A DNA stretch of 64,000 nucleotides, from NCBI RefSeq assembly GCF_003001995.1, contig NZ_PVNB01000005.1:62001-126000 (forward strand), written 5' to 3'. The translations under genes and the position numbers were made by a program. The notes under the pieces are model-generated. The model did not search any database, was not told the origin of the DNA, and was given only the letters and a program-made list of their open reading frames with translations. Below, piece by piece: positions 22,785-28,430 of this stretch; the stretch's first letter is position 1, and the number at the start of each line of letters is the position of its first letter. This DNA is from Orenia metallireducens (lineage in GTDB: Bacteria; Bacillota; Halanaerobiia; Halobacteroidales; Halobacteroidaceae).

Positions 22785-22860
22785 TGGTGGCAAAACCCGG
22801 ACTTGAACCGGGGACACGAGGATTTTCAATCCTCTGCTCTACCGACTGAGCTATTTCGCC
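22785..22860 (-). tRNA. tRNA-Phe (GAA)
   Basis: 76 nt including encoded CCA. The anticodon arm is GAGGA-TTGAAAA-TCCTC, so the anticodon is GAA. The D-arm (GCTCAG...GAGC) and T-arm with GGTTCAAGTCC are regular. Last tRNA of the five-gene operon. Confidence 0.97.
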
Positions 22861-22892
22861 AAAATTATAAATTAATTTATCAAAAAATAAAA

Positions 22893-22969
22893 TGGCGAGG
22901 ATGACGAGACTCGAACTCGCGACCTCCGGCGTGACAGGCCGGCGTGGTAACCAACTCCACCACATCCCC
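22893..22969 (-). tRNA. tRNA-Asp (GTC)
   Basis: 77 nt including CCA. The anticodon arm is GCCGGC-CTGTCAC-GCCGG, giving GTC. The acceptor stem GGGGATG pairs with CATCCTC (one G-U). Fourth gene of the tRNA operon. Confidence 0.97.
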
Positions 22970-22971
22970 GT

Positions 22972-23063
22972 ATTGTTAGCTTTTTACTTCTAGCTGTTGG
23001 CCTCTGGCTAAATCTTTAAAATCTGACTAGAAGCTAATAGCCAGTAGCTAATGGCTAAATAAA
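22972..23063. repeat. Spacer with short-period AGTAGCTA-like repeats (tRNA-Val to tRNA-Asp)
   Basis: The spacer is built from variants of AGCTAATAGCCAGTAGCTA and their partial complements (TAGCTGTTGGCCTCTGGCTA), so it can fold into an imperfect hairpin. It closely resembles the spacer at 23307-23402, down to the shared end TAGCTAAATAAATGG. Confidence 0.7.
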
Positions 23064-23139
23064 TGGTGGGCGAAACAGGACTTGAACCTGTGACCCCCTG
23101 CTTGTAAGGCAGGTGCTCTCCCAACTGAGCTATTCGCCC
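23064..23139 (-). tRNA. tRNA-Val (TAC)
   Basis: 76 nt including CCA. The anticodon arm CCTGC-CTTACAA-GCAGG gives TAC. Acceptor GGGCGAA pairs with TTCGCCC. Third gene of the tRNA operon. Confidence 0.97.
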
Positions 23140-23230
23140 TTATTAGTTGATAGTGTATAGTTTATAGTGGATAGTAAAATCTTTTGAACTTAACTATCAA
23201 TTATCAACTATCAACTGTTAACTTTATTTT
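23140..23230. repeat. Spacer with short-period ACTATCAA repeats (tRNA-Glu to tRNA-Val)
   Basis: One arm has GATAGTGTATAGTTTATAG, the other AACTATCAATTATCAACTA, so the arms are complementary. It is the same architecture as the neighbouring spacers, but with a different repeat word. Confidence 0.7.
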
Positions 23231-23306
23231 TGGTACCCCCAAGGGGATTCGAACCCCTGTCGCTGGGATGAAAACCCAGTATCCTAGGCCACTAGACGAT
23301 GGGGGC
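23231..23306 (-). tRNA. tRNA-Glu (TTC)
   Basis: 76 nt including CCA. The anticodon arm CTGGG-TTTTCAT-CCCAG gives TTC. Acceptor GCCCCCA pairs with TGGGGGT. Second gene of the tRNA operon. Confidence 0.96.
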
Positions 23307-23402
23307 CTAGATTAGTTGCTAGCTGTCAGCTGCTGGTTTCTGGCTTAAATCTTTAAAGATTCAGGCTAAAAATTAATAGCCAGTAGCTAGTAGCTAAATA
23401 AA
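23307..23402. repeat. Spacer with short-period AGTAGCTA-like repeats (tRNA-Lys to tRNA-Glu)
   Basis: Homologous to the 22972-23063 spacer. Blocks TAGCTGTCAGCTGCTGG and AATAGCCAGTAGCTAGTAG are partly complementary and form an imperfect hairpin in the primary transcript. Confidence 0.7.
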
Positions 23403-23478
23403 TGGTGAGCCATGGAGGATTTGAACCTCCGACACCCTGATTAAAAGTCAGGTGCTCTACCGACTGAGCTAATGGCCC
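23403..23478 (-). tRNA. tRNA-Lys (TTT)
   Basis: 76 nt including CCA. The anticodon arm CCTGA-CTTTTAA-TCAGG gives TTT. First gene of the operon, 10 nt after the predicted transcription start. Confidence 0.97.
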
Positions 23479-23609: not shown

Positions 23610-24458
23610 TTAACCTTTAGTAGCACCAGCAGAAAGTCCATGTACATAATATCTTTGCATAGATAAGAATACAATCATAATTGGAACAGCTGCTAATACA
23701 GCTCCTGCAGAGAACAATGTCCAATCATTATTAAACTGGCTATTAATCATATTATATAACCCTACTGCCAAAGTCTGCTTCTCTGGACTTCTTAAAACAA
23801 GGGCTGCCATAACAAAATCGTTAAATGGGTTGATGAAGTTCATCATCGCTACAACCGCTAACATCGGCTTAGCTAATGGTAGCATAATCTGCCAGAAGAT
23901 TCTAAAGCGATCAGCACCATCAATCTTAGCAGCCTCTACTAAACTAGATGGAATAGTATCAAAATAACCTTTGATCATCCATGTAGAGAAGGGAACTGCT
24001 CCACCTAAATAAACCAATAATAGACCTAAATGAGTGTCTAATAGCCCAAACATATTCAACAATACATAAATAGCTACCATAGACATAATCCCAGGAAACA
24101 TTTGAATAACTAAAAACGTCATTAATCCATACTTTCTTCCCCAGAATCTTGTCTTTGAGAAAACGTATGCAGTAAGAGAAGTTAACAATACTGCAAAGAA
24201 AGAATTTAAGGCACCGATTTTAATACTATTTATATACCACTTAACATAATGATACTCCTTAGTAGTCAGTATATCTTTAAAGTTCTTAAGACTTGCATTT
24301 TCAGGAATCAAACTTGAACTATACAAACTATTGCTAGGATTTAAAGCAGAACCTACAATCCAGATAGCTGGATATAATGCTGCTACAATCGCAATAGCAA
24401 TTATAGTATAACAAAAGATTAAACCAATTTGACTTCGTTTTTCTTGTCCTAAACTCAT
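23610..24458 (-). CDS. malG: Maltose/maltodextrin ABC transporter permease MalG
   Basis: A 282-residue inner-membrane permease of the CUT1 sugar family with six membrane segments. The EAA loop that docks on the ATPase is EAAKIDGADRFRIFWQIMLP (about 185-204). The C-terminus 'YYVHGLSAGATKG' is the typical MalG ending. The ATG start has SD GAGGAG and lies 2 bp after the malF stop. No MsmK/MalK ATPase is in the operon, so a shared ATPase encoded elsewhere must power it. Confidence 0.93.
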   Translation of the reverse strand: MSLGQEKRSQIGLIFCYTIIAIAIVAALYPAIWIVGSALNPSNSLYSSSLIPENASLKNFKDILTTKEYHYVKWYINSIKIGALNSFFAVLLTSLTAYVFSKTRFWGRKYGLMTFLVIQMFPGIMSMVAIYVLLNMFGLLDTHLGLLLVYLGGAVPFSTWMIKGYFDTIPSSLVEAAKIDGADRFRIFWQIMLPLAKPMLAVVAMMNFINPFNDFVMAALVLRSPEKQTLAVGLYNMINSQFNNDWTLFSAGAVLAAVPIMIVFLSMQRYYVHGLSAGATKG

Positions 24459-24460
24459 TA

Positions 24461-25762
24461 TTAACTCAACTCCTCTTCTTTAAAGGAATTTGTTCTTCTA
24501 AATTGATAAATACTAAATCCTGCAACTACGATAAAGATCAGGATTGAAATAGCCGCAGCATAGTTCCATTTTAATTTATCCATAGTCAATTTATATACCC
24601 ACGAAATAAGGATATCTGTTCCTCCAGCACCTTGATAACCAAATTGAGGAGGATTACCGTTATTCAACAGATAGATAATTCCAAAGTTATTAAATTGGAA
24701 AGCAAACTGCATAATCATCAAAGGAGCAATCTGTCTTAATACCAATGGTAATGTAATTCCTGTGAATTTCTGAACAACACTAGCCCCATCAACTTCAGCG
24801 GCTTCATATAAAGATTCTGGAATACTCTGTAGAACTCCTGAACATAATGCCATAACAAAGGGGAATGATAACCATAGATTAACAAGTAACACACTTATTC
24901 TAGCCCACATAATATCTTCTAACCAAGGGATTTTGTCTATACCGATAATTGCCAATAATTTGTTAACTTGACCAAAATTATAGTTCAACAACCCTCTCCA
25001 AATTAGCATAGAAACGAAAGCAGGAATAGCCCAAGGTATCATCAAAATAGTTCTTAAGATGTTTCTTCCTTTAATTTTCTTATGATTTAGAACAACAGCT
25101 AGAAATAGTCCTAAAGCAAAGATACTAACTGTAGATGATATTGTCCAAATAACTGTCCAAGAGAATACCTTAATAAAGGTCATTCTCCATGTAGATAAAG
25201 TCATGATATCTCTAAAGTTTTGGAATCCAACCCATTCAATTAGTTTAGCAGGTGGGGAATGATATAAATCATAACTAGTAAAAGCTAATAAAACAGAGAA
25301 GATTAATGGAAAAATAGTCGCAATGAATAACATAATCATACCTGGACTTATAGCAATATAAGGAAAACCAATCTCCATCATATTTTTAATAGAATCTTTA
25401 AAGCTAGGTACCTCTTCACCATTATCTATCTTTTTACCATTATTATATGCATCAACTATATTAAAAACATGAATACCTATTGCAACTAATAATAATACAA
25501 CACTTACAATACCATAAATCATCATAAAGATAGAATGATCTACTTCAGGGTTACTTCCTAAAGTAATCAAACCTTTAATATTTTCTATAAAATAACTTGG
25601 GCTCTGGAACCAAAAAGAAATATAATAAAGAAGAAATATAGCCCCTTTTACGTATTGACCATTTAAAAATTGTCCTAATCCCATAACTACAGTCGACAAT
25701 ATTGCACTATTTCTTGCTTGATTACTACCTACTCCAACATTTGTGCTAGTTTCTGACCTCAC
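24461..25762 (-). CDS. malF: Maltose/maltodextrin ABC transporter permease MalF
   Basis: A 433-residue permease partner of MalG. The first 130 residues contain extra membrane segments (MGLGQFLNGQYVKGAIFLLY, then two more), as in MalC/MalF of Firmicutes. The binding-protein-dependent transport domain follows, with EAA loop EAAEVDGASVVQKFTGITLP (about 325-345). GTG start with SD AAAGGAGG 7 nt upstream. It lies 85 bp after malE; the gap contains a strong hairpin. Confidence 0.92.
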   Translation of the reverse strand: MRSETSTNVGVGSNQARNSAILSTVVMGLGQFLNGQYVKGAIFLLYYISFWFQSPSYFIENIKGLITLGSNPEVDHSIFMMIYGIVSVVLLLVAIGIHVFNIVDAYNNGKKIDNGEEVPSFKDSIKNMMEIGFPYIAISPGMIMLFIATIFPLIFSVLLAFTSYDLYHSPPAKLIEWVGFQNFRDIMTLSTWRMTFIKVFSWTVIWTISSTVSIFALGLFLAVVLNHKKIKGRNILRTILMIPWAIPAFVSMLIWRGLLNYNFGQVNKLLAIIGIDKIPWLEDIMWARISVLLVNLWLSFPFVMALCSGVLQSIPESLYEAAEVDGASVVQKFTGITLPLVLRQIAPLMIMQFAFQFNNFGIIYLLNNGNPPQFGYQGAGGTDILISWVYKLTMDKLKWNYAAAISILIFIVVAGFSIYQFRRTNSFKEEELS

Positions 25763-25847: not shown

Positions 25848-27071
25848 TTATCTCATTTGCATAATTCCTTCTTGAATCATATCAACAGTCATTGGCAGTA
25901 TAGTTTCAGCTGGCATTTGACCATTTAAGATAAATGTCATAGCATTATTAGCTGGTGACCATACTTGCATAAACTCAGGTGCATTTGGCATTGGAATTCC
26001 ACGTCTAGCTTGAATGATAAATCCACGGATATCAGGATTATTCATTAGTTTATCACTACCAACAATCTCTTTATGTGGTACAAGAATACCATTAGTTTCA
26101 TAGTGATCCATTGACATTTCAGTATTAGTTACAAACTTAATAAAATCAGCTGCAAGCTTTTTATTTTTAGAAAACTTACTTAAGTAATATCCTTTTACAG
26201 TTAGGAAAGTCTCAGGATATTTTCCATTAGGTAATTTGGGCATTGGAGCAACAGCATAATTAACCCCAGATTCTTTAATATCCTTAAGTCTCCAGTCACC
26301 ATTGAACATAGCTCCAACTTTACCTTCACCAAATAATCCATTGATAGTGTCTCCAGTAGTACCTTTAGGAATTAACCCTTCATCTCTAAAGCTCTTGATT
26401 AGTTTAGCAGCTTTAATACCACCTGCATTAGCTAATGTCATATCAGTAAAGTTATAGCTTCCATCAGGATTTTTACCAAATGCATATGCACCATAAGCAT
26501 TGAAGATAGCTCCACTATAATAGAAGTTATTAGCTTCAAATAAGAAGCCATATTTATCTTGTCTAGCATTAGTTAACTTTTTAGCTTCTGTAATCAATTC
26601 ATCAAAAGTCTTTGGTGGTTCTGAATAGAAATCCTTATTATAAATCATCGCAATACTTTGGAATGCATATGGTAGTCCATAAAGTTTTCCATTGTAAGTT
26701 AACGCATCGATAGAATTTTCTAAGTAATTTTCTTTAGCATAACCTGCTGGTAAATACTTATCAATAGGTTCAACTAATCCTTGAACTACAGTTCTACCAA
26801 GTTTATCATGGAACCATCCTACAACATCTGCACCCTTTCCAGAAGGACCATCTAAAGCCAATCTTTGGGCTTGATCTATCTCTGGTACACTTTCAACTTT
26901 AACTTTAACTCCAGTCTTTTGTTGATAAAGTTTAGCAGCCTTGATCATCCAATTTGTCTCATCACCATTACTTACCCATACAGTTAACTCTTCTGCAGCA
27001 AATGCAAATGGAGAAACTACTCCAACACAAAGAGCAACTATAAGTGTTAATACTAATATCTTTTTCTTCAT
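25848..27071 (-). CDS. malE: Maltose/maltodextrin-binding periplasmic protein MalE
   Basis: A 407-residue family-1 solute-binding protein that delivers maltodextrins to MalFG. The signal peptide is KKKILVLTLIVALCVGVVSPFAFA|AEE, cleaved after AFA by signal peptidase I; the Cys at residue 15 is not in a lipobox. So the protein appears soluble, as in diderms, and not lipid-anchored as in monoderm Firmicutes. The mature start 'ELTVWVSNGDETNWM' and 'PYAFQSIAMIYNKDFY', 'MFNGDWRLKDI' are MalE-like. The start is ATG at 27071, 8 nt after SD AGGAGGG. Regulatory sites are likely in the 27.1-27.3 kb region. Confidence 0.93.
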   Translation of the reverse strand: MKKKILVLTLIVALCVGVVSPFAFAAEELTVWVSNGDETNWMIKAAKLYQQKTGVKVKVESVPEIDQAQRLALDGPSGKGADVVGWFHDKLGRTVVQGLVEPIDKYLPAGYAKENYLENSIDALTYNGKLYGLPYAFQSIAMIYNKDFYSEPPKTFDELITEAKKLTNARQDKYGFLFEANNFYYSGAIFNAYGAYAFGKNPDGSYNFTDMTLANAGGIKAAKLIKSFRDEGLIPKGTTGDTINGLFGEGKVGAMFNGDWRLKDIKESGVNYAVAPMPKLPNGKYPETFLTVKGYYLSKFSKNKKLAADFIKFVTNTEMSMDHYETNGILVPHKEIVGSDKLMNNPDIRGFIIQARRGIPMPNAPEFMQVWSPANNAMTFILNGQMPAETILPMTVDMIQEGIMQMR

Positions 27072-27375
27072 CAATAATTCCCTCCTAATTTTTATTTAAT
27101 TAAAAATATTAAAACCTACATTAATTCCTTTTTAGAATCAAAAAGGAACATTATATAAATACAATAAAACCCAATAAATTAAATAAATACCAATTGGTAA
27201 AGCGATTGCACAATAGAGTTTAAAAAAATATCACATTATGCAATATCTTGCCAAAGGTAAATAATTCTTTAACTTATTGGGATTATTATCTTATTTAGAA
27301 TTATCTAAAATACCTTATATTATTAAGTTGTAAAAAATCTTAATTATAAAATCAAATAAATTACTATAATTATAT
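27072..27375. promoter_or_regulatory. malE upstream region: weak promoter and cre-like site
   Basis: A -10 TATAAT (27155-27150, minus strand) has only a weak -35 (TTTATT) 17 bp away. About 45 bp upstream lies GTAAAGCGATTGCA (27197-27210), matching 10 of 14 positions of the CcpA cre word TGAAAGCGCTTTCA. Next to it is the palindrome ACCAATTGGT (27189-27198). This suggests control by a LacI/CcpA-type regulator. Confidence 0.45.
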
Positions 27376-27464
27376 AAAGAAAACCCACCAACAATTGTAT
27401 TCAACAATCATTGCCGGGGTGCTTGTAAACTTATACAATCTTGCCCTTAAATTTTAATAGTTTC
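27376..27464 (-). ncRNA. Candidate small RNA with own promoter and terminator
   Basis: Consensus promoter at 27471-27499 would start a transcript near 27464. A terminator-type hairpin closes it (CCCACCAACAATTGT with ACAATCATTGCCGGGG, 27384-27419), followed on the minus strand by TTTTCTTT. The roughly 89-nt RNA also has a small 5' hairpin (TTGTA/TACAA). A short ORF of 11 codons (MKLLKFKGKIV) lacks an SD. It matches no RNA family I recognise. It could instead be a leader attenuator of malE, 300 bp downstream. Confidence 0.55.
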
Positions 27465-27470
27465 ATTATA

Positions 27471-27499
27471 ATTATACCTATAACTATATATAGTGTCAA
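27471..27499 (-). promoter_or_regulatory. Consensus promoter without an attached gene
   Basis: On the minus strand TTGACA (27499-27494), a 17-bp spacer and TATAAT (27476-27471): both hexamers perfect. The spacer also contains the palindromic CTATATATAG. Confidence 0.8.
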
Positions 27500-27803: not shown

Positions 27804-27853
27804 ATAAAACATAAATAAAAGGAGGGATATCCCTCCTTTTATTTATGTTTTAT
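27804..27853 (-). terminator. Rubrerythrin gene terminator, 50-bp perfect inverted repeat
   Basis: 25-bp half sites centred on GGAGGGAT|ATCCCTCC with A/T flanks that give U-tracts in both directions. It lies 17 bp after the rubrerythrin-like stop. Confidence 0.88.
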
Positions 27854-27869: not shown

Positions 27870-28292
27870 TTATTCAGCAAAGTATCTGTCTAACATCCCT
27901 TTTAACATAGCGGCATGTCTAGCCTCATCTTTTGCAGACTCATTGAAGACATCATTAGCTGCATCTAAATTTTCTTCTTTTGCAGTTACAGCTGCTTTAT
28001 TCTTCATTTTATTAGCCCCTTGCTCTCCTTGTAACATCTTCTCAATATTCTCTTTAGTAGAAGCAGAAATCTTACCATTTAATTCAGCAAATCTAGCTGC
28101 ATGCTCAGCCTCTTCTATAGCAATTCTTTTTAATACTTCTGCTACTTCAGGATAACCTTCTCTTTGTGCTTGACGAGCCATAGCTAAATATAATCCTGTC
28201 TCTTGTGTCTCTCCTTTAAATTGTCCATCTACAACCTTTTCTAACTCTGTTCCTTTAGTTACTCCCAACTTGTTTTCAACAACAAAATCCAT
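27870..28292 (-). CDS. Rubrerythrin-like ferritin-superfamily protein (no rubredoxin domain)
   Basis: A 140-residue four-helix di-iron protein. Helices carry [20 protein letters not shown] and [13 protein letters not shown] in the first half and '[20 protein letters not shown]' at the end, giving the paired E-x-x-H motifs of rubrerythrin. The C-terminal rubredoxin domain of classical rubrerythrin is missing. Such proteins reduce peroxide in anaerobes. I chose the ATG at 28292, 9 nt after SD AAGGGGG. Monocistronic. Confidence 0.92.
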
Positions 28293-28430
28293 AATCAAAT
28301 TCCCCCTTATATGTATTTAGCTTACTTAATTAGTATTAGTAATTGTTACTGATAATAGTATATTATCTCTGCATCTATTTGTCAAGGAATCACCTGAATT
28401 AACAATGATTATTATTATCAAGATAATTAT

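Follow-up and report, generated by a model that had tools for sequence, protein, structure and literature searches.

A putative cis-acting attenuation element in the leaders of malE and other alpha-glucan genes of Halobacteroidaceae and Bacilli

The leader upstream of the malE-like gene in Orenia metallireducens is very probably a copy of an element that attenuates transcription in cis and belongs to an alpha-glucan (maltodextrin/starch) regulon, and this element probably switches starch and maltose genes by a choice between two competing hairpins. The initial annotation had suggested, as one of two readings, an attenuated mal operon leader, and this is now well supported: the same leader recurs before other starch and maltodextrin genes, both within this genome and among relatives as well as distant Bacilli, and a hairpin resembling an antiterminator overlaps its terminator. 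At the level of sequence this reading is carried by conservation, by covariation in an upstream hairpin (P2) and in the terminator, by a segment common to both folds and by gene association; the GGG:CCC stem, actual termination and the direction of control we infer. Our best reading is that the element is a previously unlisted RNA family, a candidate antitermination attenuator or orphan riboswitch. Its recurrence ties malE, maltoporin, amylase, phosphorylase, CGTase and neopullulanase genes of two bacterial classes into what would be one RNA-controlled regulon, and as an orphan it is compact and open to testing: it would be either a sugar-sensing RNA, few of which are known to us, or the target of some antiterminator protein. 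As CGTases are in industrial use, a possible control element immediately 5' of their genes has practical interest as well.

The leader RNA upstream of malE

The perfect promoter reported in the initial annotation was recovered, with TTGACA at 27499-27494 and TATAAT at 27476-27471 on the minus strand, a spacer of 17 and a match at 12/12 positions (Table 1). Perfect sigma-70 promoters with a spacing of 16-18 occur 4 times in the window (the whole 64-kb stretch of DNA analysed), as compared to 0.03 times per simulated window. The predicted RNA lies 306 nt upstream of the malE ATG, and no ORF of at least 80 aa was found inside it, in line with the earlier statement that it holds no gene. Its 3' end forms the hairpin CCCG-G-CAATGATTGT / ACAATTGTTG-G-TGGG, followed by the T-rich TTTTCTTT. 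This hairpin, previously described as strong, is clear, but there is a G.G mismatch in the outer stem, folding of the entire RNA shows only a modest advantage over its shuffles (z −1.4 to −2.0), and the terminator is missing from a strict terminator scan of the window.

Table 1. Features of the malE leader and its downstream genes
Feature	Position	Strand	Basis
Leader promoter TTGACA-17-TATAAT	27471..27499	minus	12/12 consensus match; retained in four genomes
Leader RNA, ~89 nt, predicted ends	27376..27464	minus	covariance-model match 27464-27377; homologues L003, L004, L005
Conserved 5' core TTAAAATTTAAGGGC (family consensus AA-N3-RAGGGC)	27443..27457	minus	AA 35/36 and 34/36, AGGGC 36/36
P2 hairpin TTGTA-TAAGTT-TACAA, putative antiterminator part	27423..27438	minus	fold and family-wide covariation
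CCCC common to proposed P1 (GGG:CCC) and terminator	27417..27420	minus	position; first three C invariant, 36/36
Predicted terminator hairpin and T-tract, degenerate in malE copies	27376..27419	minus	folds, −17.3 kcal/mol here; covariation
malE-like sugar-binding protein gene, ATG at 27071	25848..27074	minus	SBP_bac_8/SBP_bac_1; MalE, GanS models below cut-offs
malF	24461-25762	minus	best NCBIfam model MalF, below cut-off
malG	23610-24458	minus	best NCBIfam model MalG, below cut-off

Promoter and RNA are kept in two congeners at 94% and 89% identity (BLAST), and in a third relative, from another genus of the family, the core is 75% identical, with TTGACA and TATAAT retained at a spacing of 18. 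In every case the BLAST homologues of the leader precede a malE homologue. Of the two parts whose conservation had been proposed as a check, the promoter is retained in four genomes but the T-tract is not strictly conserved: the block AAGGGC(A/T)AGATTGT..ACAAGCACCCCGGCAA is nearly constant across genera while the T-tract decays (variants TTTTCTTT, TTTTATTT, ATTTATTT and ATATTTAA among the malE leaders), a pattern more suggestive of an RNA domain than of a simple terminator. Within the family, terminators are weakest in the malE copies, including that of the window, with a G.G mismatch and a broken T-tract, and in the copy of Halonatronum saccharophilum (G004) the T-tract is not clear; control at malE may therefore be weaker than at other copies.

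Copies of the element before alpha-glucan genes

Covariance models built from the four malE leaders (R1), from 13 copies (R2) and from 19 copies (R3) led to a total of 36 copies, with gene context playing no part in finding them: 17 in five Halobacteroidaceae genomes (4 of them in O. metallireducens) and 19 in Bacilli. R1 retrieved paralogues within the same genomes (E down to 5.8e-7), located between a LamB porin gene and a secreted alpha-amylase gene, before a GH13 amylase gene and before a GT35 phosphorylase gene. R2 contributed copies before phosphorylase genes, here and in two other genera (E = 3.0e-8 for the phosphorylase copy), and R3 homologues in Bacilli (E down to 1.7e-8). The Bacilli copies are spread over 17 genomes of one order, that of Oceanobacillus, in which 397 genomes were searched with R3.

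Genes of alpha-glucan metabolism (malE, lamB/alpha-amylase, GH13 amylase, GT35 phosphorylase, CGTase or the neopullulanase type) lie downstream of 35/36 copies. Those of the Halobacteroidaceae precede malE, the lamB/alpha-amylase pair, a GH13 amylase gene or an alpha-glucan phosphorylase gene, with a single exception (L108 in G002; 1649-2690) that lies directly before genes for an ABC transporter ATPase and two permease-like proteins. All 19 Bacilli copies precede CGTase or neopullulanase-type genes, labels that outside Oceanobacillus rest on similarity of the encoded N-terminus, judged by reading. In Oceanobacillus indicireducens (L171) an exact-pattern match sits directly 5' of a gene that we read from its protein as CGTase-like (in the NCBIfam scan its matches were GH13 relatives only, all below cut-off), and a second copy, found as a model match, precedes the next gene, of the neopullulanase/cyclomaltodextrinase type. 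When Bacilli matches with E <=0.01 are considered, all 19 that have AGGGC precede GH13 genes, and the rest resemble ordinary terminators. In the Halobacteroidaceae, most copies before malE and amylase genes have a promoter matching at 11-12/12 positions 20-40 nt upstream of GGG; such a promoter is mostly lacking at those of the lamB/amylase pair and the phosphorylase.

Two of the downstream genes have additional N-terminal features: the LamB porin (L100:577-2226) carries a CBM48/AMPK1_CBM glycogen-binding domain, and the GH13 amylase (L101:1-2181), with similar genes behind the element in G001, G002 and G004, has a weak HSDR_N_2 match.

Under strict filters, a survey of 398 genomes of its own phylum gave no convincing copy beyond this genome, and a survey of 398 genomes of the phylum around Oceanobacillus gave Oceanobacillus alone; filters were stricter in both surveys, as in the survey of the 397-genome order, and weak copies were perhaps missed. 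R3 matched neither PTS-glucose loci nor the loci of malE homologues in more distant genomes, among them those of Halanaerobacter jeridensis (G003). A malE protein search of the genome contigs gave no match, and the malE homologues came from a separate genome search.

Searching with short patterns was less informative. The short core with mismatches returned background matches only, and AGGGCWA..CCCCG alone gave many chance matches in some genomes. Three of the 18 exact-pattern matches in named genomes are real (L170 in Halonatronum, L171 in Oceanobacillus and L183 in Halanaerobacter), and the other 15, having no adjoining terminator on reading, were taken as chance. Weak matches rejected on reading were L048, L146-L152, L166-L168, L216, L219, L222-L228 and L231-L233; among these, an ORF overlaps L166 with its 3' end, and L168/L232 resembles a T-box.

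Two competing hairpins

The consensus of the family reads AA-N3-R-A-GGG-C-N-A, P2, A/U, CCC(C)G and a terminator ending in CGGGG, followed by a T-rich stretch. The base of P2 is often UG..CA, and in many Bacilli copies a CU or CA bulge follows it. Among the bases predicted to be unpaired, the A before GGG and the C are present in 36/36 copies, the following A in 34/36, and the upstream AA in 35/36 and 34/36. In each copy the terminator reuses the CCCC.

Both P2 and the terminator show strong covariation, with pair counts flattered in the R2 and R3 alignments, which are model-fitted. In an alignment of 19 sequences, 17/22 pairs changed on both sides, with 100 such cells as compared to 35.9 after shuffling, and the signal collapsed when partners were slid; a 38-row alignment (A9), which includes two reverse-strand rows, agrees with this result. 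The shuffle tests on the 36 copies and the 38 rows ignore kinship among copies, and one copy (L220) was misparsed in the 36-copy parse. GGG and CCC never vary among the copies, so the stem that they would form is a prediction only, with no covariation support.

In many copies the 3' strand of P2 is complementary to the bases after GGGG (AACAA/TTGTT, AAGAA/TTCTT and TAGAG/GTCTT), a complementarity that 0/5000 shuffles equalled when kinship was ignored, and the P2 and terminator folds would therefore compete and be mutually exclusive. Together with the covariation of P2 and terminator and the common CCCC, this gives the element the mutually exclusive folds with a common strand that characterize an attenuator. 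In 36/36 copies the isolated terminator is predicted to be more stable than the antiterminator (mean −18.7 vs −4.8 kcal/mol), and early termination is hence the expected default.

According to the mechanism that we propose, RNA polymerase would start at the consensus promoter and transcribe AA-N3-RAGGGCNA, then P2, then CCC, which would close a three-pair GGG:CCC stem at the foot of P2, the two being separated by a conserved, asymmetric internal loop (CNA / A or U). Such an antiterminator would be weak and would stand against the terminator, in which the same CCCC pairs with GGGG and, in many copies, the bases after GGGG would also capture the 3' strand of P2. Transcription would end early by default and proceed into the gene when a signal keeps the antiterminator in place.

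Candidate signals and comparison with known RNAs

At the gathering score of Rfam 15, no family matched the window leader or 13 loci; relaxed E-values gave weak matches to unrelated families near terminators only, and a literature search found no description of the element. Conserved candidate RNA motifs named msiK and malK reportedly occur before sugar ABC-transporter genes and are similar in location; our leaders match no Rfam model, which would set them apart from these motifs to the extent that the release includes them.

It is quite conceivable, if somewhat short of probable, that the core serves as a minimal aptamer in which direct binding of a sugar or a sugar phosphate stabilizes the antiterminator, making it a candidate ON riboswitch. 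Consistent with this, one core with invariant unpaired bases accompanies one gene theme in two bacterial classes, no regulator gene common to both groups was noticed adjoining the copies, and, where this was checked, the sole BglG-type antiterminator of the Halobacteroidaceae genomes comes with RAT sites of its own. Terminator-controlled ON riboswitches have a small conserved 5' domain and a strand common with the terminator; the element resembles them in its conserved 5' domain, its terminator-common strand, its gene association and its occurrence in two bacterial classes, but, unlike the known ones, is matched by no Rfam family. The core is also only ~35 nt long and contains a single variable hairpin, whereas most aptamers are more complex, and to our knowledge neutral sugars are not common RNA ligands.

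The signal might also be a protein, a reading that we regard as possible without expecting it: some RNA-binding antiterminator would bind the hairpin, in the way that LicT and SacY bind a RAT, and block the terminator. Like the copies, BglG-family targets consist of an imperfect hairpin of ~30 nt that contains an asymmetric internal loop and overlaps the 5' arm of the terminator just downstream, and the expected default of termination and the association with sugar-use genes are likewise shared with the BglG, LicT and GlcT systems. However, unlike the targets in those systems, the copies have no RAT sequence, the classical form (TGTTAC..GGCA) being found in 0/36. CAT_RBD proteins occur once in each of G000-G006, within a PTS-glucose operon in the genomes whose neighbourhoods were read (G000, G003 and G004); two classical RATs each (ACTAGCGTGTTACTG..CAGGCATAAGCTAG) are found in L193 and L194, at the glcT/ptsG operon of G003 and G004. 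The BglG/LicT RAT route was rejected on these two grounds. An ANTAR target, made of two hairpins with conserved six-base loops, was rejected by reading, as the P2 loop varies in length and sequence, and outside the ANTAR and GlpP families no other candidate antiterminator was found.

We judge direct recognition of a metabolite (maltose, maltodextrin, cyclodextrin or glucose-1-phosphate) to be slightly likelier than an RNA-binding protein, because two distant groups have the same core and no regulator was seen adjoining the copies. That the element forms a new riboswitch class, in which one of these starch-derived sugars switches on genes for alpha-glucan uptake and breakdown in halophilic Halanaerobiales and in Bacilli, we put forward tentatively.

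The initial annotation had also considered a trans-acting sRNA, in which other mRNAs would be bound through base pairing by the terminated RNA of ~89 nt. The strong promoter and the compact terminated RNA would fit such a role, but we consider it improbable, given that 36 copies precede co-functional genes and that the conserved bases form the overlap between antiterminator and terminator. In Vibrio, the sRNA Vsr217 is derived from the malK 5' UTR under MalT control and works both in trans and in cis (PMC8265627). It is like our element in coming from the leader of a maltose-transport gene and in having a cis role; unlike for our element, the abstract describes no multi-gene leader family (PMC8265627), and the likeness is one of description. 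The trans-acting reading would be superfluous given cis attenuation, although a terminated leader could also act in trans, as Vsr217 does.

Attenuation through a leader peptide, with a ribosome on a short leader ORF deciding the fold, is very unlikely and was rejected: an ATG at GGGCNATG does follow an SD-like RAGGG in 23/36 copies, but the gap between the two is only 2-3 nt, the ATG is absent in 13 copies, that of the window included, and CCC falls in each of the three frames (9/8/6), so that no peptide is conserved. It is just as hard to credit that the copies are unregulated terminators lying behind strong promoters by chance. Terminators alone do yield weak model matches (L216, L222-L228 and L233) but such chance matches have neither AGGGC-P2-CCC nor the gene association.

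Apart from the attenuation element, other sequences around malE drew our attention. A second conserved element lies between the leader and malE (27150-27290, minus strand) in four genomes, with arms CCAATAAGTTAAAG ... TTTAATTTATTGG that can pair, including a conserved G.U and one C-G to U-A change, around a variable loop; this inverted repeat could be either an RNA helix or a DNA operator. The sequence TTGTGCAATCGCTTTACCAA, resembling a LacI-type operator, precedes malE at 27190-27215 (minus strand) in this genome and in G001 and is absent in G002 and G004. The inverted repeat and, in these two genomes, the operator-like sequence may point to further control of malE. On the other side of the leader, a 20-bp inverted repeat with a T-rich tail at 27805-27852 is probably the terminator of a rubrerythrin-like gene (27870-28298). 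Five tRNA genes are located directly downstream of malG (22788-23478, minus strand).
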